DNA from: Sinomonas mesophila
GTDB lineage: Bacteria > Actinomycetota > Actinomycetes > Actinomycetales > Micrococcaceae
Reading direction: 5' to 3'
DNA length: 35,817 bases
NCBI RefSeq assembly: GCF_001999765.1
Contig: NZ_KV908332.1
Location: forward strand, 1 to 35,817
Shown: positions 25,412 to 35,815 of the stretch, piece by piece
How the letters are laid out: each line of letters starts with the position of its first letter
Position numbering within the stretch: the first letter of the stretch is position 1
Notes under the pieces: model-generated
Told to the model about the DNA's origin: nothing
Databases searched by the model: none
What the model saw: only the letters and a program-made list of their open reading frames with translations
Made by a program: the position numbers and the translations under genes

Positions 25412-25696
25412 TCAGCTGAGGGAGTTGGAGGTCTGCTCCTGGACCCTGGCGTTCGTGTCCATCGTCTTGGCCGCCTCGCGCAGCTCGTCGATGAGCTTGT
25501 TCAGGGACTTCAGGCCCTCGGCGTGCCAGTTGCTCCTGAACTGCTCGGCGTCCCGGCCGGACCAGTTCTCCGGGATGTTGTTGCTGATCAGGCCGTTGAG
25601 GTTGTTCTTGATGCTCGCGATCTCCTCGGCCTTGGAGTTGAACTGCTTGGCAACGTCGCGCAGCTGCTCGACGTTGGCACCCTGCCTAATGGCCAT
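25412..25696 (-). CDS. WXG100-family secreted protein (EsxA/EsxB-like)
   Basis: This 94-residue protein is a typical ESX substrate hairpin: two amphipathic helices separated by the turn ENWSGRDAEQF with W45-S-G47. There is no signal peptide, as expected for type VII export. The C-terminal YxxxD/E secretion signal of mycobacterial partners is absent (the end is ARVQEQTSNSLS), so export may follow the Firmicute-like route or use a partner. GGAAG precedes the ATG. It is the last gene of the operon, about 118 bases beyond eccC, with a terminator right after it. Only one WXG100 gene is visible, so it may homodimerise. Confidence 0.93.
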   Translation of the reverse strand: MAIRQGANVEQLRDVAKQFNSKAEEIASIKNNLNGLISNNIPENWSGRDAEQFRSNWHAEGLKSLNKLIDELREAAKTMDTNARVQEQTSNSLS

Positions 25697-25814
25697 GGTT
25701 CTTCCTTTCGATACGTCCCCGGCGTGTCCAGGAATCCGTCGCCCGGTCCTCCCAGCGGCCCGGACGCCTGCCTACAAGCTATCGGCCCCGCGTCGGAGGC
25801 GTCGATGGGGACAA

Positions 25815-28800
25815 CTACCCCTGGCCCCCGAGGTCCTCATACGCCGCCTGCACCTTGTACGCCCGCCCGCGGGCGATGTAGTAGCCGCGGCCCGGAACGT
25901 ACTTGGGATTGCGGATCCGCCCGAGCGACGTGTTCAGCAGCGAGTCGCCGTCGTGCTCGGCCGGGTTGAGCAGGAGGCCGCGGCGGCCGTTTTTGAACGG
26001 CTGCGAGAGGCTCCACGCCGAACTCCACGCGGAGGTCTCGGCCTCGCCGACGACCCACAAGCCCTCCCGGTCCATGGCCGTGATGAGCCCCGTCAGGGGG
26101 CTCTCGGCCAGGGACGAGTCGAACTCCGTGATGCCCTCGGCGAAGAGCGCGAACTCGCGCACGCCCACCTCGATCTGGAGCTCCTCCGCGGCCTGCGAGA
26201 CGGCGTCCTCGCCCGTGTAGCTCGCGTCCCACAGGGGCAGCGAGGCGATCGCCGACGTGCGCGCCCCGACGTACACGCGCCGGACGCCGGGCCGCGCCCG
26301 CCGCAGCGCCGCCGCGAGGGCGACGATCGCCGTCGTGCGCCCCGACCCGGGAGGGCCGGTGAGCATGAAAGCGCCCGACGGGTCCGCGAACAGCGGCTCG
26401 AGGCTCGTGTCCTCGATGCCGATCGCGACGCGCCCGCTGTCGAGCGGCAGCCGGTCGCCGGCGACGACGTCGGGCAGGCTCCGGATGCCCGGCGCCTCGG
26501 GCACGCCCTGGCGGCGCATGGCGGCGGCGAGGCGGCCGATCTCGCGCGCCTGGACGGCGACGTTCGCGTTCCCGCCGAGGATTGCGAGCTGCAGCTCGAG
26601 GCCGTCGACGACGCCGCGCCCCGGCGGCGACTGCGGCGTCACGACGTCCTTGGGCTGGTTGAACATCATGTAGTCGTCCTCGCCCGTCATGCGCAGGATG
26701 ATGCGCTTCTGCACCGAGGAGGCGATCGAGGCCGGGATCGAGTTGGTCCGGTCGCCCGTCATGACGAGGTGGACGCCGACGGCGCGCCCGTCAGAGGCCA
26801 GCTGGGTGAGGATGTCGAAGACGTTGCTCTCGGAGGAGTACTCGTAGAGCTCGCGGAAGGCGCCCATGCCGTCGATGAGGACGATGATGCGCGGCTCGTC
26901 CGGGGCGTCCGCGAGCCGGCGGTACTCCCCGACCGTCCCGGCGCGGGCCGCGGCGTACCGGTCGGAGCGCTCGTCGACGATCGCGCCGAGGTGCCGCATG
27001 AGCCGCCCGACGCGCTCGGCGTCGTCGGCGTCGATCACGGCGCCCACGTGCGGCAGGTCCGCGAGCATGTGCAGGCCCTGGGAGCCCGCATCGATGCCGT
27101 AGACCTGCACGGGCCCGCCGCGCACCGTCACGGCCGAGGCGACGGCGATGGTGCGCAGCGCCGCGGACTTGCCCGAGCCGCCCGTTCCGTAGACGGCCAT
27201 GTTCCCGTCGCGGTCCGGCTCGTAGGAGAACGTGGGCTGGGACTGGCGGGCCGGGTTGTCGACGACGCCGAGCAGGAGCCGCTCGTCGGTGCGCGGGTTC
27301 GGGAGCCTCGTGAAGTCGTAGGTCTGCGGGAGCTCCTCGAGCCAGGGCTTGCGCGGCAGGCCGATCTCGAGCCGGTCCGCGGCGGTCGAGATCGTGCGGA
27401 CCATGCGGGCGATGTCGTTGGGCCCCTCCACCTCCAGCTCGGCCCCGGCGGTGGCGGACGCGGGCTGCTCCCACGCGGCGCCCGAGCCGAAGTCCATCTC
27501 CACGATGTCGATCCGCGGCTTGGCCGGCTTGTCCGTGGTCCACCCGGACGCGTACCCGGTCTGGAAGCCCTGGATCCGGCCGGGCCCCGTCTTGGCGGCA
27601 CCGCGGCCCGGGATGGCCGGGTCGAAGTACGCTGCGGTCTTCTCGCCGAGAATGTCCTCGGAGTCGGCCTCGTCCGCCATGCGCAGGGCGATGCGCAGGT
27701 TCGTGTTCGCGCGGAGGTTGTCCTTGATGACGCCGGCGGGCCGCTGGGTCGCGAGGATGAGGTGGAGGCCGAGCGAGCGGCCGCGCGCGGCGACGTCCAC
27801 GACGCCGTCCACGAATTCGGGCACCTCCGTGGCGAGCGCGGCGAACTCGTCGACGACGATGATGAGGTACGGGGGCGTGTCCGGGTCCGCGGCCCGCTCC
27901 ATCGCGAGCAGGTCCTTGGCCTTCTTCCGGTTGAAGAGGTGCTCGCGGTAGTGCAGCTCGGCCCGCAGCGAGGTCAGGGCCCGGCGCACGAGGTGCGGGG
28001 ACAGGTCCGTCACGAGCCCGACGGTGTGGGGCAGGCTCACGCAGTCCGCGAAGGCCGCGCCGCCCTTGTAGTCGACGAACAGGAACGTGACCCGGTCCGG
28101 GCTGTACGCCGACGCCATGCCGAGCACCCAGGACTGGAGGAACTCGGACTTGCCCGCGCCGGTGGTCCCGCCGACGAGGGCGTGGGGGCCCTCGTTCTTG
28201 AGGTCGAGGAAGAACTGCTCGACGCCCTTGGAGCCCACGAGCGCGCGCAGCGTCCCCTTGGCCTTGGGATTGGCGACGGCGCTCGAGCGCACCGAGTTGG
28301 ACTGCTGCCAGCGCTCGGCGACGGTGCCGGCGTCGTCCGCGATCTCCTTGCCGGCGAGAGTCACGTAGCTCACGGCGCGCGGGAGGTCCGAATCGTCGTC
28401 GACGGGTTTGCCGACGTCCACGATCGGGGTGAGCATGCGCCCGAGCTGGACGGCGAGGGCCTCGTCGACGCTCTCGCAGCTCACCGGGTAGGTGTGCCTG
28501 CCGAGGCGCACGTGGCCGCTCGTGGCGCCGTGCTCGCCGTCCGCCACGACGAAGTCGCGGCAGCACTGCGGGAGCTGCTCGACGCTCGCGGCGACCCACA
28601 CGACGTGGATGCCGACGTCGGGCCCGAGCTCGGCGAGGCGGGTGATCCGGCCGCGGTCGACGGGCGCATCGTCCTCGACGATCACGACGACGGTGGGCAC
28701 GATCGGCTCGGTCGCGCCGTCGTGCTCCTCCGCGACGGCGCCGCGGCGGCCGGTCGGCCGCGTCATGCCGCCCGAGGTGCGCACCGCGAGGAGGTCCTCG

Positions 28801-30299
28801 AGGCGCGTGAGCAGGAGCGTCCCGGCGGCCGACCCGGCGGCCAGGTGGTCCCCGGCGAGCGGCGAGTGTGGCGAACCGACGTGTGGGAGCCATTGGAGCC
28901 AGTCCCAGCGGGCCTTGGACTCGTGGGAGGCGAGGGCGGCGATGGCGACCTCGGCCGGCGAGTGCAGGCCCGCGACCTGCAGGACCACGCCGCGGGCGAT
29001 GTCCTCGACGAGGCCGCGCGGTCCCGCAATGCCGAGACCGCCGCACTGGCGCAGGCTCGCCGTGATCGGCACCGCGTCGAGGACCGCGAAGCGCTCGGCG
29101 GCCTCGTGGATGCGGCGTGTGAACTCGGGGAGGGTCTGGCCCTCCTTGGGCGTCGTGACCGTGACCCGGCTCGGAGCGGCGCCGAGGCCAAGTCGCACGG
29201 TGAGGAACTCGCGGTGCTCCGGGGCATGTGTCCACAGGAGCGGCCCCAGCCGGTAGATCGATTCGACGGTCTCCGCGACCGAGGGGGCCTCCTGGAGCCG
29301 CACGGCACGCTCGACCGTCTGCAGCTCGGTGATCTGCCGGCCGAACTCGGCGAGGCGCCCCTCGAACAGGGCGCTCTCCTCGCGCAGTTCCTGCTTCGCG
29401 TGGCGCCGGAACTCGAGCCACATGCCGATCGAGAAGAGCGGCATCATGGCCATGAAGATGACCGAGAGCAGGTTCTGCAGGACCACGAGCATCACGGCGC
29501 CCATGGCCATCGGCAGGATCACCATGGCGATCGGGAACGGCTGGTTCTTGGGCCGCTGCGGACCCTCGGGGACCTCGCGCTCCTGGGCGGGGAACCGCGG
29601 CACGACGCGCGGGGAGCGGTTGAACGGCACGAGCGGCGAGGTCTGGGCCCGGGCTGTTCCATGGCCGAGCCCGCTGCCCAGTCGAACAACGGAGATGGTC
29701 GTCTCGCCGATCGTGACCGCGTCCGAGGACGCGAGCACCGCGCGGGAGACGGTGTGCCCGTCCATGACGAGCCCGTTGGAGGAGTTGAGGTCGACGATCT
29801 CGATCGTCTCCCCCACGGTGATGCGCGCGTGCCGCTTCGAGGCGAGCGGGTCGGTGAGCGCGACGTCGGCGCCCGCCCCGCGGCCGATGAGGCTCGCCCC
29901 TGCCGGGAGCGAGAACTCGGCCCCGGCATCGGGACCGGAGACCACGCGCAGGGTCGCCGCGGCGGGCCCGCGGTCGACCGCCCCCAAGCTGCCCGGCCCG
30001 CCTGCGCGCGGGTCGACGCGCGAGACCGAGACGGTCGAGCCCTGCCGGAGTCCGGACTCGAGCAGGTTGCCCGCGGGGTCGAGGACCCTGCCGGTCATGC
30101 CCCCGGCGAGGACGGACTCCTCGACGCGCAGGGTGAGGCCATCGAGCGCGGTGGGCGCGGGGTCGGCACCCTCGGTGCGTGCCGGGTCGGCGAGGTAGAG
30201 CTCGCGGGCCACGTCGGCCACGGTCGCCAGGCCGTCCACGGTCACGGCGAGGTCCGCTGCCGGCGACGGGTCGCGCCGCAGCGTGAGTCTGATCCGCAC
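25815..30299 (-). CDS. eccC: EccC/EssC-type FtsK-SpoIIIE secretion ATPase with N-terminal FHA domain
   Basis: This 1494-residue protein is the motor of the type VII secretion system. Order: an N-terminal beta-rich domain (1-95), FHA domain (about 117-207: SLIGRGAGADVALTD, SKRHARI, NSSNGLVMDG), two adjacent transmembrane helices (about 257-296), then three FtsK-type ATPase modules. Walker A motifs: GGTTGAGKSEF (residue about 709, with Walker B LIIVVDEFAALA), GTGGSGKSAAL (about 1035), and GPPGSGRTTAI (about 1314), where the P-loop lysine is arginine and the module is probably inactive. FHA before the membrane segment is the EssC/YukB layout of Firmicutes rather than mycobacterial EccCa/Cb. The GTG at 30299 overlaps the upstream stop (TAGTG); a longer frame exists but runs antisense-style through the neighbouring gene. 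Confidence 0.95.
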   Translation of the reverse strand: MRIRLTLRRDPSPAADLAVTVDGLATVADVARELYLADPARTEGADPAPTALDGLTLRVEESVLAGGMTGRVLDPAGNLLESGLRQGSTVSVSRVDPRAGGPGSLGAVDRGPAAATLRVVSGPDAGAEFSLPAGASLIGRGAGADVALTDPLASKRHARITVGETIEIVDLNSSNGLVMDGHTVSRAVLASSDAVTIGETTISVVRLGSGLGHGTARAQTSPLVPFNRSPRVVPRFPAQEREVPEGPQRPKNQPFPIAMVILPMAMGAVMLVVLQNLLSVIFMAMMPLFSIGMWLEFRRHAKQELREESALFEGRLAEFGRQITELQTVERAVRLQEAPSVAETVESIYRLGPLLWTHAPEHREFLTVRLGLGAAPSRVTVTTPKEGQTLPEFTRRIHEAAERFAVLDAVPITASLRQCGGLGIAGPRGLVEDIARGVVLQVAGLHSPAEVAIAALASHESKARWDWLQWLPHVGSPHSPLAGDHLAAGSAAGTLLLTRLEDLLAVRTSGGMTRPTGRRGAVAEEHDGATEPIVPTVVVIVEDDAPVDRGRITRLAELGPDVGIHVVWVAASVEQLPQCCRDFVVADGEHGATSGHVRLGRHTYPVSCESVDEALAVQLGRMLTPIVDVGKPVDDDSDLPRAVSYVTLAGKEIADDAGTVAERWQQSNSVRSSAVANPKAKGTLRALVGSKGVEQFFLDLKNEGPHALVGGTTGAGKSEFLQSWVLGMASAYSPDRVTFLFVDYKGGAAFADCVSLPHTVGLVTDLSPHLVRRALTSLRAELHYREHLFNRKKAKDLLAMERAADPDTPPYLIIVVDEFAALATEVPEFVDGVVDVAARGRSLGLHLILATQRPAGVIKDNLRANTNLRIALRMADEADSEDILGEKTAAYFDPAIPGRGAAKTGPGRIQGFQTGYASGWTTDKPAKPRIDIVEMDFGSGAAWEQPASATAGAELEVEGPNDIARMVRTISTAADRLEIGLPRKPWLEELPQTYDFTRLPNPRTDERLLLGVVDNPARQSQPTFSYEPDRDGNMAVYGTGGSGKSAALRTIAVASAVTVRGGPVQVYGIDAGSQGLHMLADLPHVGAVIDADDAERVGRLMRHLGAIVDERSDRYAAARAGTVGEYRRLADAPDEPRIIVLIDGMGAFRELYEYSSESNVFDILTQLASDGRAVGVHLVMTGDRTNSIPASIASSVQKRIILRMTGEDDYMMFNQPKDVVTPQSPPGRGVVDGLELQLAILGGNANVAVQAREIGRLAAAMRRQGVPEAPGIRSLPDVVAGDRLPLDSGRVAIGIEDTSLEPLFADPSGAFMLTGPPGSGRTTAIVALAAALRRARPGVRRVYVGARTSAIASLPLWDASYTGEDAVSQAAEELQIEVGVREFALFAEGITEFDSSLAESPLTGLITAMDREGLWVVGEAETSAWSSAWSLSQPFKNGRRGLLLNPAEHDGDSLLNTSLGRIRNPKYVPGRGYYIARGRAYKVQAAYEDLGGQG

Positions 30300-31087
30300 T
30301 AGTCCCCCTCGGGTCCGGAGAGCAGCTGCGCGTCGAGCAGCGCCAGGTCGTCGGCCGTGACGAGATGGGAGCTCACGGCGTGCTCCACGAGCCGCGCCCG
30401 GCGGTTGGTCGCGAGCTTGCCGCCGCCGGCGCGCAGCCCGGCGACGCCCACACGGTCGAGCTTGTCGCACACGTTGTCGAGCTTGCGGTTGAACTTGGTC
30501 AGGGCCCAGCCAAGGCGCTTGGCGGCCGCCGCGGAGGTCGGGATGGCGCTCAGGCCCGTCCCGTCGCGGCGCAGCATGGGCTCGGCGAGGGCGACGATGA
30601 GGGCCTTCTGCGAGTCTGTGAACGTGATCGGGCCGATCGTCGTCTCGCCGACGTCGCCGGTAGTGTCTGCGCTTTCCATCACCATGCTCTGCCGGAACGC
30701 GGGGGTGCGCACGTGCACGGCGAACTCATAGGTCGTGGAGCCCGCGGTGAAGATGACGTTCGTGTGGCCGAACACGAGTGGGATGCGCGCGCCCGGGACG
30801 ACCCAGGCCTGGAGCCCGCCGCTCAGGTCGGCGACCGTCGCGGAGAGCAGGGATCCCACGTTGCTGAGCCACCAGATCCCGTCGATGCGGGAGATCTCGA
30901 GGAAGCGCCGGTGCAGGTACGGGTTGTCGTCGACCTCGAGGTCGCCCTCCCGGCCGATGCTGAACACCTCCGCCGGGTCTGGCCGGTAGAGCTCGCCGCA
31001 GAAGTCCACGACGAGATCTCCCGCCCTGCCCCCCGCTGCGTCCGTGGCCGCGCCCGGCGGCGCGTAGCCCGTGCTGTCCGTTGTCAT
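30299..31087 (-). CDS. FHA-domain protein with C-terminal helical DNA-binding-like part
   Basis: This is a 262-residue soluble protein. An FHA-like domain spans about residues 28-125 (VFSIGREGDLEVDDNPYLHRRFLEI, WWLSNVGSLLSATVAD, RIPLVFGHTNVIFTAG); the phosphothreonine loop is less canonical than in the other FHA genes here. The C-terminal half (about 150-255) is helical, TDSQKALIVALAEPMLRRDG then SAAAAKRLGWALTKFNRKLDNVCDKLDRVGV, and looks like a winged-helix module. Its stop overlaps the eccC start, and it lies downstream of the kinase gene. Its place in the operon suggests an adaptor between the kinase and EccC. The combination of FHA and helix-turn-helix could also mean a regulator. Confidence 0.85.
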   Translation of the reverse strand: MTTDSTGYAPPGAATDAAGGRAGDLVVDFCGELYRPDPAEVFSIGREGDLEVDDNPYLHRRFLEISRIDGIWWLSNVGSLLSATVADLSGGLQAWVVPGARIPLVFGHTNVIFTAGSTTYEFAVHVRTPAFRQSMVMESADTTGDVGETTIGPITFTDSQKALIVALAEPMLRRDGTGLSAIPTSAAAAKRLGWALTKFNRKLDNVCDKLDRVGVAGLRAGGGKLATNRRARLVEHAVSSHLVTADDLALLDAQLLSGPEGD

Positions 31088-31136
31088 GCCTTGCCCCTCC
31101 CGCTTGGCGTGTCCGTCAGTTCTCTCGTGGCCCCCG

Positions 31137-32822
31137 TCACGCCGGGAAGCACGCGCTCGGCGCCGTCTCGTCCATCGCCCCAGCGGCGCCGTCGCTGCGC
31201 CGGACGACGACGCGCACGCACGTCGCGCCCGAGGCCTGCTTCGGCACGAGCACCTCGGTCGCCGTGACGGCCCGGGGCGGCTCCTGCCCCGTGAGCTTGA
31301 GGACCGTGACCATGTAGGAGTCCCCCGGCCTGGGCTGCGGGTTGGTCCACGTGAACTTCACGTTCGCCCCGGCGTCGGTGCCCGCGAGGTGCTCCACGGC
31401 CGGGACCGTGCCCGAGTCAAGGGCATCGACCGGGGGCGCGCTGTGCGTCGTCTGGTTCGGGGTGGGCCGGTCCGCGAGGCTCGGGGCCACGAGCACCCCC
31501 GCGACCACGGCGGCCACGAGGACTGCTCCGGCGGCGATCGAGGCGACGAGCGTCCGACGGCGCCGCGCGCCTGGGTGCCCCTCCTCGGGGTCGCCGTGTT
31601 CGCCGTCGTCCTGCCCGTCCCACTGCCCCTGGCCGGCCTGCCCGCGCAGGACGGTCGCGTCGCCGCGCAGGACTGTCGAGTCCGCTGTGTCAGTGGGCGC
31701 GTTGCCCTGGCCCCGCACAACGGTCGAGCCGGCGGTGTCGGCGGGTGCGGGGGCGTACGGGGCCCGCAGGGGCGCACTCGTCGAGGCGAGTGCCCCCGTC
31801 GTCGCGCCCGCCGCGGCCCCCGGGCGGGTCGGCGCCGGCGGGGCGGGCGCGGGACGCGGTGACCGCGGCGTCCCTTCGGGGTTGATCGAGACGACCCCGC
31901 GCACGCGGGTCTCCTCGAAGCCCGCGTCCGGGTCGTCGTCGTCCACGACCTCCTCGAGCACCTCGAACGGCGTCACCGACAGGCTCAGCTCGCTCTGGAT
32001 CCGCTGGAGCGCGAGGGCGAACGTGTGGGCCGAGGAGTAGCGGCTCTCGGGCGCCTTGGACATCGCGGTCGAGAGCACAAGCTCGAGCGATTCGGGCACG
32101 TCGGGGCGGCCGATCGGCGGCACGGGCGCCGAGTGGATGCGCTGGATGAGCGAGCGCTGCGAGTTGTCCCCTCCCGGGAGGACGAACGGCGAGCGTCCGG
32201 CGAGGAGCGTGTAGAGCGTCGCGCCGAGCGCCCACACGTCCAGCCGCACGCCGTCGACCGCACCGCTGCGGAAGGACTCGGGCGGGGACCACGGGATCGA
32301 CATGCCCATGTCGCTGTCCCCGCCGCCCTCGACCGTGCCGGCGATGCCGAAGTCGGCCAGCGCGGGCCGGTTGTAGTCGGTCACGAGGATGTTCGCCGGC
32401 TTGATGTCGCGGTGCGCGATCCCGGCCCGGTGCGCCGTCTCGACCGCGGAGGAGACCTGGATCCCGATCGCGAGGACCTCGTCGACGCTCAGGCGCTCGC
32501 GCCGGTAGCGGATGTCGAGGCTCGGGCGCGAGCAGTACTCCATGGCCAGGTACGAGTGCCCGTCGTCGGTGATCTCCGCCTGGTAGATCGTGACGATGTA
32601 CGGGTGGGACGAGAGCTGGGCCATGAGGTTGGCCTCCGTCTCGAACTGGCGGCGCGCGCTCTCGGTGCGCAGGCCCGAGACGAGGACCTTGACGGCGACC
32701 TTGCGGCGAGGGCGGTCCTGCTCGTAGAGGAAGACGTCCGAGAAGCCGCCCGAGCCGAGCAGGCCCAGGTAGCGGAAGCCGGGAAGCTCGGGGGGCGGCG
32801 CGGGCGGGCGCTTCGAGCTCAC
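31137..32822 (-). CDS. Transmembrane Ser/Thr protein kinase (PknB-like)
   Basis: In this 561-residue protein the kinase domain spans 15-280: GSGGFSDVFL (23-32), K45 in VAVKVL, HRDIKPANIL with D139, DFGIAG at 157-162, and PWSPPESF in place of the usual APE segment. The Pro/Ala/Thr-rich juxtamembrane part (about 290-420) holds repeated TRVRG, STVVRG, STVLRG and ATVLRG motifs. One transmembrane helix (424-446) leads to an outside domain of about 115 residues resembling a fibronectin III fold (VKFTWTNPQPRPGDSYMVTV). The GTG at 32822 overlaps the upstream stop (GTGA). With the PP2C and FHA genes it probably controls the secretion motor; the Thr-rich linker may be an autophosphorylated docking site. 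Confidence 0.95.
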   Translation of the reverse strand: MSSKRPPAPPPELPGFRYLGLLGSGGFSDVFLYEQDRPRRKVAVKVLVSGLRTESARRQFETEANLMAQLSSHPYIVTIYQAEITDDGHSYLAMEYCSRPSLDIRYRRERLSVDEVLAIGIQVSSAVETAHRAGIAHRDIKPANILVTDYNRPALADFGIAGTVEGGGDSDMGMSIPWSPPESFRSGAVDGVRLDVWALGATLYTLLAGRSPFVLPGGDNSQRSLIQRIHSAPVPPIGRPDVPESLELVLSTAMSKAPESRYSSAHTFALALQRIQSELSLSVTPFEVLEEVVDDDDPDAGFEETRVRGVVSINPEGTPRSPRPAPAPPAPTRPGAAAGATTGALASTSAPLRAPYAPAPADTAGSTVVRGQGNAPTDTADSTVLRGDATVLRGQAGQGQWDGQDDGEHGDPEEGHPGARRRRTLVASIAAGAVLVAAVVAGVLVAPSLADRPTPNQTTHSAPPVDALDSGTVPAVEHLAGTDAGANVKFTWTNPQPRPGDSYMVTVLKLTGQEPPRAVTATEVLVPKQASGATCVRVVVRRSDGAAGAMDETAPSACFPA

Positions 32823-34486
32823 GGCACCGCCTCGAAGGTCAGGGTCACGCCGTCCCCGAGGTCCGCGACGTCGCCGTCGAGCACGATCGACATCTCGCCC
32901 TGCGCGAGCCTGCGCGGCGACTGGCCGGGCCGCTCGAGCACGGTCCCGTTGGTCGCCTTGAGATCGCGGAGCATGACGTGCCAGCCCTCGAGGCGCACCT
33001 CGAGGTGGTTGCGCGAGATGTCGCCGGACGGGCTCGCGACCGTCACGAGGCGCGGCATGCCGCCGCTCGCGACCCGCGAGACGGAGGGCTGGCGCCCGAC
33101 GACGAGCGGCTCCTCGAGCTCGATGACCTCGCCGCTCGAGAACCGGACCCGGCCCAGGGCGGGGCGCGGGAGCTGCTCGGGCTCGCCCGTGATGGGCTCG
33201 CCGCAGGCGGGGCACTGGGCGTAGGACGGCGGGTTGGCGTGGCCGCGCGGGCAGCGGCGGCCCAGCACGAGAGGCCCCTCGCGGCGGTCCGCCGGCGACG
33301 GCGGGGCGCCGCGGCGGTCTGCGCCGGCGTCGTCGCCGGCGGGCGGCGGCACGGTCAGGCCGAGGTCTCCCGTGGCGCCGCGGTCCGCGGGCTGGTCCTC
33401 AAGGCCGTCGAGGTCGCTGCGCATGACGGTCTCGCCGTCGTGGTCGCCGAAGAGCTCGGACGTGATGGAGCGGTCCTCGGGGCCCCGTTCGGGCGCCTGC
33501 GGGCTCTCCCGGTCCCGGCCGGGGCCGGCCGGCTCCGGGGCCGGCCCGGCCCACGGGAGGGAGTCGATGAGGAGGCTCGGCGGCGTCCATGCGAGAGCCG
33601 GGGATGCCGGCGGGGCCGCTGCCGGCTGGGCCAGCGGCTCCGTCGTCCGCGGCGGCGGGAGCGGGTCGGTCGTCTGCTCGGGCCCGGGCCCGTCGTGCTC
33701 CTCGGCCTCGCTCTCGCGCACGGCCGCGTCCTCGACCGAGCGCACGACCGTGCTGCCCCACAGCTGGTCGTAGGAGGACGTCGTCGTCGTGGGGTGGTCC
33801 TCGGCCGGCGCTGCCGCAGGAGCAGCCTCGGCGGGGGGCTCGGCGGCAGGAAGCGGGGCCTCGTCGGCCGGGAGCTGGGTGTCCGTGGGCGGAAGGATCG
33901 TCGCGTCGAGGCTGCCCTGCTCTCCAGCGGCCGGCTCCCCCGCAGCGGACTCCCTGGCCGGGGCAGCCGCGGGGGCCTCCGTCTGGGCAGGGGCAGCCGT
34001 CGGCGCGGGTGCAGCCGCGGTCGCCGGTTCAGCCGCCGGCATCGGCGCTGCCCCGTTCCCGGAATGCACGCGCACGGACGCGGCACCCACGGCGCCGCCT
34101 TCGAGCGGGAGCGAGGGGCCGCCGTCGTCCTCGCCCACGAGCTCGACCGCCGTCCAGCCGTCGACCCCGCGCTCAAGCCACGTGCCGACGTCGGCGCCGC
34201 TCACGCGCTCGCGGCCCGCCGGCGTCGTGACCGCCGCGTCCACGGCCCCGCGCACGAGCAGGCGCAGCCGCTCGCGGTGCTCGGCGATGCCGAAGGCGGG
34301 GAGCCGGGCGAACCCGAACTCGGCCGTGAGGGCATCGAGGACTCCGTAGAGGTCAGTGCCGTCGCCCAGGAGGGCCCACAGGCGGGGGACGAGGGGGCGG
34401 CCGTGCTCGACGGGCAGGAGCACCGCGAGGTGCCCCCGCGCGACGAGCGTCCATCGGGTGCCCGGGCAGTACTCACGCGTCGCCAT
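32819..34486 (-). CDS. Zinc-ribbon and FHA-domain protein of the secretion operon
   Basis: This is a 555-residue protein. An N-terminal globular part (about 1-130) reads MATREYCPGTRWTLVARGHL and LWALLGDGTDLYGVLDALTAEFG and is not recognised. A long Ala/Pro-rich disordered linker follows, carrying DATILPPTDT (T196), GSTVVRS (T246) and GETVMRS (T353). Near residue 412 a four-Cys zinc ribbon (CPRGH...CPACG) precedes a C-terminal FHA domain (about 455-550) with LVVGRQPSVSR, GDISRNHLEVRLEGW and DLKATNGTVL. GGAGGA precedes the ATG at 34486, which lies 14 bases inside the phosphatase gene. The linker threonines resemble those in the kinase and are likely phosphorylated by it; the FHA domain would read such marks. 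Confidence 0.88.
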   Translation of the reverse strand: MATREYCPGTRWTLVARGHLAVLLPVEHGRPLVPRLWALLGDGTDLYGVLDALTAEFGFARLPAFGIAEHRERLRLLVRGAVDAAVTTPAGRERVSGADVGTWLERGVDGWTAVELVGEDDGGPSLPLEGGAVGAASVRVHSGNGAAPMPAAEPATAAAPAPTAAPAQTEAPAAAPARESAAGEPAAGEQGSLDATILPPTDTQLPADEAPLPAAEPPAEAAPAAAPAEDHPTTTTSSYDQLWGSTVVRSVEDAAVRESEAEEHDGPGPEQTTDPLPPPRTTEPLAQPAAAPPASPALAWTPPSLLIDSLPWAGPAPEPAGPGRDRESPQAPERGPEDRSITSELFGDHDGETVMRSDLDGLEDQPADRGATGDLGLTVPPPAGDDAGADRRGAPPSPADRREGPLVLGRRCPRGHANPPSYAQCPACGEPITGEPEQLPRPALGRVRFSSGEVIELEEPLVVGRQPSVSRVASGGMPRLVTVASPSGDISRNHLEVRLEGWHVMLRDLKATNGTVLERPGQSPRRLAQGEMSIVLDGDVADLGDGVTLTFEAVP

Positions 34487-35414
34487 CGTCGTCCTCCTCC
34501 CCCTGTCCGCTGTCCTGGCCGCGCGCGCCGCCGCCGGTCGTGCCGTCACCCTCCGCACCCTTGGCCCCCACCACTGGCACGGGGCCCGTATCGCGGTCGA
34601 GTGTGTCCCCATCCGGGCTGAGCCGCGGCGCGGTCTCGGGCAGGCCGAGCGCATCGGCGGCGTCGCGCACGTCGACGACGACGACCGTGACGTTGTCCCG
34701 CCCGCCCTTGCGGATCGCGGCGTCCACGAGTGCGTCCACGGCGTCCTGCGGATGCTCGTGCGAGGCGAGGATGCTGTGGATCTCCGTATCGCGCAGCTCG
34801 CTCGTGAGCCCGTCTGAGCACACGAGGAGCCGGTCGCCGTCCTCGACGGGCAGGAGCCAGAAGTCCGCCTCGGCGTCCTCGCCGGTGCCGAGGGCGCGGG
34901 TGACGACGTGCCGGCGGGGGTGCACGAGCGCCTCCTCGGGCGTGATCTCCCCCGCCTCGATGAGCTCGCGGACCTCGGAGTGGTCCACGCTGATCTGCAC
35001 GAGGCCGCCGCTGCTGCTGAGCCGGTACGTGCGCGAGTCGCCGACATTGGCCACGAGCCAGTAGGGCACCGAGGAGATCTCGATGAGCACGGCCCCGGAC
35101 AGTGTCGTCCCTGCCCGCGCGCCCGTGGCCTGGCGGATGCGCCAGTCGGCCCGCTCGATGACCTGCTGGATCTGCCGAGCCGTGGCCCGGTGCGTGCCGT
35201 GCGCCAGGACGGGGGCCTCGCGCAGGGTCTGGATGCACAGCTGGCTCGCGACCTCGCCGGCCTCGTGCCCGCCCATCCCGTCGGCGACCATGAAGACCGG
35301 GTCCTGGGCGAGGAACGCGTCCTCGTTGAGCTCGCGCCGCAGGCCCCGGTCGGTGCCGAAGCCGACCGTGAGGGTCAGGCGCGGCTCGAGGTCGGCGAAG
35401 TGGGTGTCTGTCAC
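34473..35414 (-). CDS. PP2C-family Ser/Thr protein phosphatase
   Basis: This is a 313-residue protein. PPM metal-binding motifs are all present: VGFGTDRGLRRELNEDAF (D32), FMVADGMGGHEAGE (D45, G46), YWLVANVGDSRTYRL, DRLLVCSDGLTSEL and GGRDNVTVVVVD. There is no transmembrane helix; an acidic Gly-rich tail follows the catalytic domain (about 15-260). It should reverse phosphorylation by the kinase two genes downstream. The GTG at 35414 overlaps the stop of the upstream FHA gene, and its own 3' end overlaps the next gene by 14 bases, so the operon is tightly coupled. Confidence 0.96.
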   Translation of the reverse strand: MTDTHFADLEPRLTLTVGFGTDRGLRRELNEDAFLAQDPVFMVADGMGGHEAGEVASQLCIQTLREAPVLAHGTHRATARQIQQVIERADWRIRQATGARAGTTLSGAVLIEISSVPYWLVANVGDSRTYRLSSSGGLVQISVDHSEVRELIEAGEITPEEALVHPRRHVVTRALGTGEDAEADFWLLPVEDGDRLLVCSDGLTSELRDTEIHSILASHEHPQDAVDALVDAAIRKGGRDNVTVVVVDVRDAADALGLPETAPRLSPDGDTLDRDTGPVPVVGAKGAEGDGTTGGGARGQDSGQGEEDDDGDA

Positions 35415-35815
35415 GCGCGGCCCCTGCCGATCGAGAAGAAGTGGTCTCCGAAGTGCACGACGTCCCCGGCGTCGACCTCGACGGGCTCGCCGGCCGGCGC
35501 GGGAGAGGCGGCGCCGTCGGCCCGGACGACACGCGTGCCGTTGGTGGACTTGCGGTCCTGGACCCAGACGCGCCCGTGCTCGCTCCAGACGGCGAGGTGC
35601 GTCTTGGACACGCTCTTGCCCGGGTCCTCGACGGCGAGCAGCTGCTGGACGGTCTCGTCCTCGTACGCGGCCGGGTTGCGGCCCACGAGCACGGGGCCGC
35701 GCAGCGCGATGCTGCGCCCGTCGCTGAAGCTCAGCACGACGTCCCCAGCCGCCCCGGGCGGGGCGGCGCGGCCGCCGGCGAGGTGGGTCGAGCCGAGGTC
35801 ATCGTCAGGGTGGGC
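35411..35815 (-). CDS. FHA-domain protein, C-terminal part (5' end outside window)
   Basis: The frame is open to the window edge, so only the last 134 residues are visible. They contain DDDLGSTHLAGG followed by an FHA domain: SIALRGPVLVGRNPAAYE, KSVSKTHLAVWSEHGRVWV, DRKSTNGTRVV and GDVVHFGDHFFSIG. Arg in VGRN, Ser in VSKTH and Asn in STNGT are the phosphothreonine-binding residues. The stop overlaps the phosphatase start. The upstream remainder probably holds another domain, for example an RDD-type membrane module as in related loci; this is a guess. Confidence 0.87.
   Translation of the reverse strand, partial: AHPDDDLGSTHLAGGRAAPPGAAGDVVLSFSDGRSIALRGPVLVGRNPAAYEDETVQQLLAVEDPGKSVSKTHLAVWSEHGRVWVQDRKSTNGTRVVRADGAASPAPAGEPVEVDAGDVVHFGDHFFSIGRGRA

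Follow-up and report, generated by a model that had tools for sequence, protein, structure and literature searches.

The subject of this report is a stretch of 35,817 nucleotides from Sinomonas mesophila (positions 1 to 35,817 of contig NZ_KV908332.1, assembly GCF_001999765.1), here called the window, and a run of genes in it that encodes a type VII secretion system (T7SS) together with a Ser/Thr kinase, a PP2C-type phosphatase and several FHA proteins. With its 35.8 kb the window opens contig C16, which is 97 kb long and belongs to a near-complete genome of 4.0 Mb. The locus is a real, conserved T7SS of the EssC type, embedded in a phosphorylation cluster of the kind described in bifidobacteria as the PFNA operon, and judged by its sequences the T7SS subtype appears to be new beside those named in a 2024 survey (PMC11217815). 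Our preferred reading, to which we give a probability of roughly 0.5, is that a T7SS of an undescribed subtype lies inside a PFNA-type envelope-signalling cluster and is linked to it by phosphorylation through S1, a motif in the linker of an adaptor protein. What carries this reading can be seen in the sequences themselves: gene content and order, catalytic and binding residues that are intact in most homologues, a separate clade of EccC motors, and a tie between S1 and the motor.

All seven genes that an earlier note had read from the letters of the window (FHA, PP2C, zinc-ribbon/FHA, transmembrane kinase, FHA, FHA-fused EccC and WXG100) were recovered at the positions and in the order it gave, and the domain calls (FHA, PP2C, kinase, FtsK/SpoIIIE plus FHA, WXG100) are backed by Pfam and NCBIfam. 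They make up most of a ten-gene run that extends upstream past the window with genes for transglutaminase, DUF58 and MoxR in the same direction, and that has ligA as its downstream neighbour. The first of the seven is split exactly at the window end by a 10-N scaffold gap (C16:35818-35827). On the same strand beyond the gap are a weakly matching zinc ribbon and an RDD domain, which makes the product a membrane-anchored FHA protein; the FHA part was correctly recognized, and it is the C-terminus of a zinc-ribbon/RDD membrane protein. A sigma-70 promoter scan of the locus found no promoter, and terminator-like sites occur solely on the opposite strand.

Among 100 genomes of the family, 20 (own included) match the motor along almost its whole length at identities from about 60% upward, one of them (L061) with EccC in two overlapping frames. 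The comparison of gene order that had been proposed as a check was carried out, and the genes for DUF58, transglutaminase, RDD-FHA, PP2C, adaptor, kinase, FHA4 and EccC stand in the same order in all 19 other Micrococcaceae loci; MoxR is visible in 15, the remaining four stretches stopping short of it. Given this synteny, a chance neighbourhood of genes was dropped as an explanation. FHA4, the protein encoded between kinase and motor, is well conserved (68–84% to that of the window in 18 homologues) and was matched in 104 of 248 genomes of the order, 97 of them strongly, which with weak matches included represent 43 of 86 genera. A scan of named FHA4 loci covered the best 80 of at least 578 confirmed stretches: 76 are titled Arthrobacter, Paenarthrobacter, Pseudarthrobacter or Sinomonas, EccC directly follows FHA4 in 64, and the closest FHA4 among them is that of Sinomonas sp. 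R1AF57 (82%). Two loci titled Sporosarcina (L198) and Acidobacteria (L263) hold Arthrobacter-like copies of the cluster, probably through contamination or mis-binning, and were kept in the counts. The recurring core consists of PP2C, adaptor, kinase and FHA4 (40 loci, 15 family codes).

The motor is an EccC/EssC-type protein with tandem ATPase domains (Pfam FtsK_SpoIIIE, 170 bits); its best curated model, TIGR03928, gave 557 bits against a cut-off of 778, which was not reached. In a tree made by a quick method it belongs to a clade of 31 rows with support 100, and the T7SSd-like motor L175, to which it is 28% identical, falls outside on a long branch; L175 stands for T7SSd in this tree and is called T7SSd-like by its gene content. 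Membership of T7SSd was dropped on this ground, and that of T7SSb because neither YukC/EssB nor a separate YukD/EsaB was found in any of eight genomes, the Bacillus subtilis control being positive for both. EccB also gave no match in the eight genomes, where no control matched either. The N-terminus of the motor is predicted to carry a fused ubiquitin-like domain: the AlphaFold2 topology fits the b-b-a-b-b-b order, and the best PDB profile match is a redesigned ubiquitin (E 0.0012). Of 33 motor N-termini scanned, two match UBX (best E 0.0027) and one YukD (E 0.014), the window's own giving none; the Foldseek and VIA lists, taken up by FHA matches, leave the ubiquitin-like part unprobed. By eye, the N-terminus of the L175 motor also looks ubiquitin-like. 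The adjoining FHA domain has a canonical pocket that is retained across 42 aligned rows (alignment A4, which joins the window's motor to 41 of the 44 homologues prepared; G 41, R 40, S 40, H 41, N 40, G 41). Two further motors of the same clade (L058, L059) have as neighbours a gene of the RDD/FHA type and a WXG100-like gene that is divergent and matches only weakly, in stretches that lack the kinase module.

The enzymes of the module have the residues expected of active proteins in most homologues. Kinases carry HRDxKPxN in 129 and DFG in 130 of 131 cases, and the phosphatases a DGMGG-type motif in 131, SDGL in 124 and the third motif pattern in 105 of 132. Seven protein kinases are encoded in the genome, so that the one writer of the earlier note need not be the only one. 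Its four phosphothreonine readers are reduced to a likely three. The FHA folds themselves are predicted, and the key residues are kept in most homologues of EccC and of the adaptor (121 of 131 for the latter). FHA4 retains the fold but appears to have lost the Ser of the pocket (placed by spacing to the conserved His), with Pro in its place in 43 of 48 sequences, and it was dropped as a phosphothreonine reader. We read it as an effector of the EmbR kind. Its Thr150 is invariant (48/48) within a linker that is otherwise variable and modelled with low confidence; the helical region after it has a pattern like that of a winged helix and lies in a C-terminal half barely probed by the fold search. 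A Pfam match of FHA4 (P0005) to RuBisCO was taken as noise and replaced by the fold result. For the N-terminal domain of the adaptor, whole-protein Pfam scans returned no family.

The adaptor linker is hard to align save for three islands, S1 (YDxLWxxTVxRxxEDAAVR), S2 (LIDSVPW) and S3 (DHDGxTVMRS). With duplicates removed, S1 was found in 79 of 80 motor-bearing Micrococcaceae loci, the sole miss (L225) being an 8-kb fragment, and in none of 18 motor-less loci. The corresponding figures are 77 of 80 and 14 of 18 for S2, and 80 of 80 and 18 of 18 for S3, which was dropped as a motor marker, being kept with and without the motor. On the tree of the family, S1 changes state three times, each time together with the motor. 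Across the order, eight independent supported pairs resulted from scoring per cluster, of which about five were in step and none was opposed (median p 0.06); the in-step figures, out of six or seven pairs, were 4.5 and 4.1 under scoring by adjacency or by genome (median p 0.125). S1 was defined on loci L040–L057 and L122–L161, and the named 80 are thus only a partly independent test. Three adaptor pairs identical between the sets were removed for the 98-locus count and kept in the tree, in the TVxR–motor analysis and in the look at S1 variants by eye; these three and the order-wide pairs used the matched adaptor part plus 30–60 residues. The count excludes L234, a named motor locus whose stretch shows no adaptor, and the order-wide pairs exclude three loci with no adaptor match (L127, L133, L140). 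In other families the presence of the motor was scored per locus for the S1 count and in three ways for the pairs.

The plain reading of a motif that is kept with the motor and lost with it is that S1 marks where the adaptor would meet the motor. No other feature of the sequences speaks as well as this co-retention for a coupling of circuit and motor, which we consider likely. A shorter motif, TVxR, is enriched in the proteins that might be phosphorylated by the kinase: across the same 19 loci it occurs in 18 adaptors (mean 1.16 against 0.07 in shuffled sequences) and in 12 kinases (1.0 against 0.12), in four RDD-FHA proteins, and in no PP2C, FHA4 or EccC. Plain TVxR was dropped as a motor marker, since among named loci the kinase has it in 49 of 63 with and in 15 of 16 without the motor.

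The wider cluster is, on the evidence of its sequences, related to the PFNA operon of bifidobacteria, which runs pkb2, fn3, MoxR, duf58, tgm, prpC, a hypothetical gene and fha (PMC8430577). Both have homologous genes for the kinase, a giant Ig/FN3 protein, MoxR, DUF58, transglutaminase, PP2C and FHA proteins; they differ in gene order, and no FHA4, adaptor, motor or WXG100 was seen in the PFNA run. The giant protein has about 1,800–2,300 residues at full length, with an N-terminal anchor, Ig-like Big_9 repeats and FN3 domains. It was matched in 157 of the 248 genomes of the order, 14 of them of family code f4, and in most of the 22 loci showing it the gene directly precedes MoxR or directly follows FHA4. 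The genome of the window holds the PFNA core genes in a different order, with the giant gene alone on contig C8 (about 171403-177570; L170), where no MoxR or transglutaminase was found in the 40 kb fetched. Four loci of f4 genomes (L172, L173, L174, L189), which in our reading are bifidobacterial, have the order kinase, giant, MoxR, DUF58, transglutaminase, and in genome G118 (L173, L277) the genes that come next encode PP2C, an open frame of 204 residues and an FHA protein, which completes the published eight-gene order. The giant protein and MoxR are possibly fused in L172 (genome G241), where a single open frame gives matches to the two, and genome G228 has the T7SSd-like cluster L175 some 25 kb away from its PFNA-type cluster L174. 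PFNA orthologues have been stated not to occur outside bifidobacteria (PMC6803598), and the cluster in Micrococcaceae speaks against that confinement; a partial likeness of PFNA to the mycobacterial moxR operon has been noted (PMC12067865).

From these features a working model can be drawn. The outer domain of the membrane kinase would sense a signal from the envelope, and the kinase would phosphorylate threonines in its own juxtamembrane linker and in that of the adaptor. The phosphorylated sites could then be bound by the FHA domains of motor, adaptor and RDD membrane protein, gathering motor, adaptor and kinase at the membrane with S1 as the docking site of the motor; assembly would start the export of WXG100, and possibly also that of larger proteins in which a WXG100 domain occurs, until PP2C reset the system. 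We infer phosphorylation of S1, its binding by the FHA domain of EccC, the gating of export and the identity of the substrates, and phospho-gated export, including kinase control of WXG100, is accordingly put forward as plausible. More tentatively, and with the odds somewhat against it, the motor with its ubiquitin-like and FHA N-terminus may dock by phosphothreonine on the 19-residue motif within a host cluster that is the older, widespread form of PFNA. If that were true, PFNA would be a branch, without the motor, of a system for envelope signalling and secretion, and not a bifidobacterial invention for host immunity.

Several observations weigh against phospho-control of the motor through S1. 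Only part of the 97 strongly FHA4-bearing genomes have an EccC of this subfamily, 60 with (at most 6 kb away in 40, 6–20 kb in 9, farther or on another contig in 11) and 37 without, and the motor therefore accompanies, as far as sequences tell, only some copies of a phosphorylation module that is more widespread than the motor itself. Here a motor was counted at 1000 bits or more or as two long pieces, and genome G298, whose copy is broken, was scored as motor-less; seven genomes with FHA4 matches at E 1e-11 or weaker were excluded, and the Fisher tests ignore relatedness. EccC occurs without FHA4 in 12 genomes, and in one Micrococcaceae locus (L123) the motor is absent with the rest in place and ligA adjoining. 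The circuit that the earlier note saw as wired into the T7SS is probably linked to it, as the motor-linked motif suggests, but is not dedicated to it. The S1–motor tie in Micrococcaceae amounts to three state changes, and the order-wide pairs overall to 4.1–5.2 in step and 0–0.1 opposite, with median p of 0.06–0.125. In other families the tie is looser, S1 being found in 7 of 10 motor-bearing and 2 of 18 motor-less loci; two of the three misses (L143, L160) are recognizable variants by eye, and one of the two motor-less matches (L131) has a motor about 12 kb away. The genome of another motor-less locus, L141, has no motor. TVxR is also weaker outside Micrococcaceae (kinase 11 of 29, adaptor 10 of 28), and no channel or membrane partner of the motor was identified. 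The FHA4-bearing genomes without a motor would fit a module that serves the surface system of MoxR, DUF58, transglutaminase and the giant Ig/FN3 protein, the motor being an operon passenger that perhaps shares the envelope signal and is not phospho-controlled. FHA4 co-occurs with the giant protein in 88 of the 97 genomes, PFNA runs of the bifidobacterial type hold kinase, phosphatase and FHA genes with no motor, and Pkb2 phosphorylates MoxR (PMC8430577). We nevertheless think such a passenger role rather unlikely, as the motor's own FHA domain is canonical in 40–41 of 42 homologues and the adaptor motif is kept only with the motor in Micrococcaceae.

Phosphorylation may also be unnecessary for contact. 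S1 is conserved over 19 residues, beyond its Thr, the Thr is absent in a few motor-bearing loci (L054, L160), and in T7SSb the FHA domains of EssC lack phosphothreonine residues and bind the pseudokinase EssB (PMC11217815), so that S1, judged by its sequence, may bind unphosphorylated and form with the N-terminus of EccC a constitutive scaffold. This seems improbable to us where the FHA pocket of the window is canonical, an active-looking kinase and phosphatase are encoded next to it, and the Thr at position 8 of S1 is present in 57 of 60 distinct segments. That the system is simply the known T7SSd (described from Olsenella and Bifidobacterium; PMC11217815) is very improbable. The two share WXG100, an FHA-bearing EssC-like ATPase with intact phosphothreonine residues and a membrane kinase, and related loci have a giant Ig-like protein. 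The EccC clades are nevertheless separate, and the present system has additional genes for PP2C, adaptor, FHA4, MoxR, DUF58 and transglutaminase; the giant protein has no detectable homology to the TsdI-like protein of L175 (0.4 bits with the giant-protein model; no giant gene lies beside the window locus), and the kinase model scores the T7SSd-like kinase at 106 bits, against 326–407 for those of the four f4 loci of PFNA type.

Other known systems resemble parts of the locus. T7SSe, reported from Bacillota only, has a kinase, PP2C, a separate FHA protein and an FHA-bearing ATPase, together with TseB, TseJ with DUF6382, TseH, TseI, TseK and a second WXG100 (PMC11217815). T7SSb (EssC/EssB/EsaA/EsaB) has a similar motor, but the first N-terminal domain here is predicted to be ubiquitin-like and not FHA1. 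The threonine-phosphorylation pathway of type VI secretion systems (T6SS), and the reported effect on ESAT6 secretion of PknA phosphorylating the T7SS substrate CFP10 in Mycobacterium tuberculosis (PMC10653824), are alike in the influence of a Ser/Thr kinase on a secretion machine or its substrate, yet neither is known to have an FHA-bearing motor with a dedicated linker motif, and the kinase–export link of the present locus is a proposed one. The T6SS-like control suggested for the window agrees with the literature and is not itself new, since the survey that named T7SSc–j proposed threonine-phosphorylation control for other T7SS types and drew the same parallel (PMC11217815). In that survey T7SSd is the only new actinobacterial type, and its main text has no mention of Arthrobacter, Cellulomonas, MoxR, DUF58 or transglutaminase, nor does the text of a PFNA review contain 'type VII' or 'WXG'. 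Titles and abstracts searched gave no description of a T7SS joined with a MoxR/DUF58/transglutaminase cluster, Micrococcales included. The subtype, the link to PFNA and the motor-linked motif therefore appear new, and join two research lines that are separate in the literature searched. Phospho-gating of T7SS was raised and not tested in the survey (PMC11217815); S1 offers a concrete handle on whether threonine phosphorylation gates bacterial T7SS motors, and Arthrobacter-type hosts make experimental follow-up practical.

Table 1. Features of the T7SS and phosphorylation locus of S. mesophila (positions on contig C16, which coincide with those of the window up to its end).
Feature	Position	Strand	Remarks
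MoxR gene	41648-40677	-	beyond the window
DUF58 gene	40663-39332	-	beyond the window
Transglutaminase gene	39335-36768	-	beyond the window
Zinc-ribbon/RDD/FHA membrane protein, C-terminal FHA part	35411..35815	-	gene start at contig 36771, beyond the gap
PP2C-type Ser/Thr phosphatase	34473..35414	-	usual acidic motifs
Adaptor	32819..34486	-	N-terminal domain, long variable linker, zinc-ribbon-like CxxC pairs, C-terminal FHA with canonical phosphothreonine residues
S1, motor-linked motif in adaptor linker (YDQLWGSTVVRSVEDAAVR)	33716..33772	-	
S3, second Thr-bearing island of adaptor linker (DHDGETVMRS)	33416..33445	-	kept with and without motor in Micrococcaceae
Transmembrane Ser/Thr kinase	31137..32822	-	three TVxR repeats in the linker from kinase domain to membrane
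FHA4, FHA-fold protein	30299..31087	-	degenerate phosphothreonine pocket, C-terminal helical region
FHA4 Thr150 codon	30638-30640	-	invariant in variable linker
EssC-like T7SS motor ATPase (EccC)	25815..30299	-	
Predicted ubiquitin-like domain fused to motor N-terminus	30015..30299	-	
Motor FHA domain	29673..29969	-	canonical phosphothreonine residues
WXG100 protein	25412..25696	-	likely T7SS substrate or partner

The WXG100 protein of the window is a secure family member (Pfam E 3e-10; TIGR03930 47.2 bits, cut-off 44.85). The pairing of its gene with eccC, as put forward earlier, is seen here but is not general, with a WXG100 gene at most 2.6 kb downstream of EccC in just 42 of 105 distinct motor loci (109 less the window's second copy and three duplicates; 7 of the 63 lacking one have fewer than 400 bases downstream). 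At least one WXG100 match was present somewhere in each of 11 Micrococcaceae genomes examined, two motor-less ones included. In several of the loci with no WXG100 (L042, L223, L218, L221 and some others of Arthrobacter type) the frame that comes after the motor is small and rich in proline, and has a single hydrophobic helix at its C-terminus.

Four WXG100 matches occur in the S. mesophila genome, one of them at the N-terminus of a 379-residue open frame on contig C8 (L272:11001-12137, minus strand), where the domain resembles the WXG100 protein of the operon (KQGANPEQLRALGKQF). This frame, about 12 kb from the giant gene, is followed by a 222-residue gene with no Pfam match (L272:10332-10997, minus strand), and from their sequences the pair are candidates for a T7SS substrate and its partner. 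The window's WXG100 gene has a second, near-identical copy in the same genome (G000:C6:248190-248432; L270:9173-9556), near a malic-enzyme gene, and such a pair, its second copy likewise near a malic-enzyme gene, is also present in the congener G061 (C4 and C6; L040, L271), the other genome examined in the genus. The copies are 99.3% identical in DNA over 287 bases in S. mesophila and 98.4% over 382 bases in the congener, although the proteins are only about 66% identical between the two genomes, and this near-identity within each genome suggests concerted evolution of the copies.

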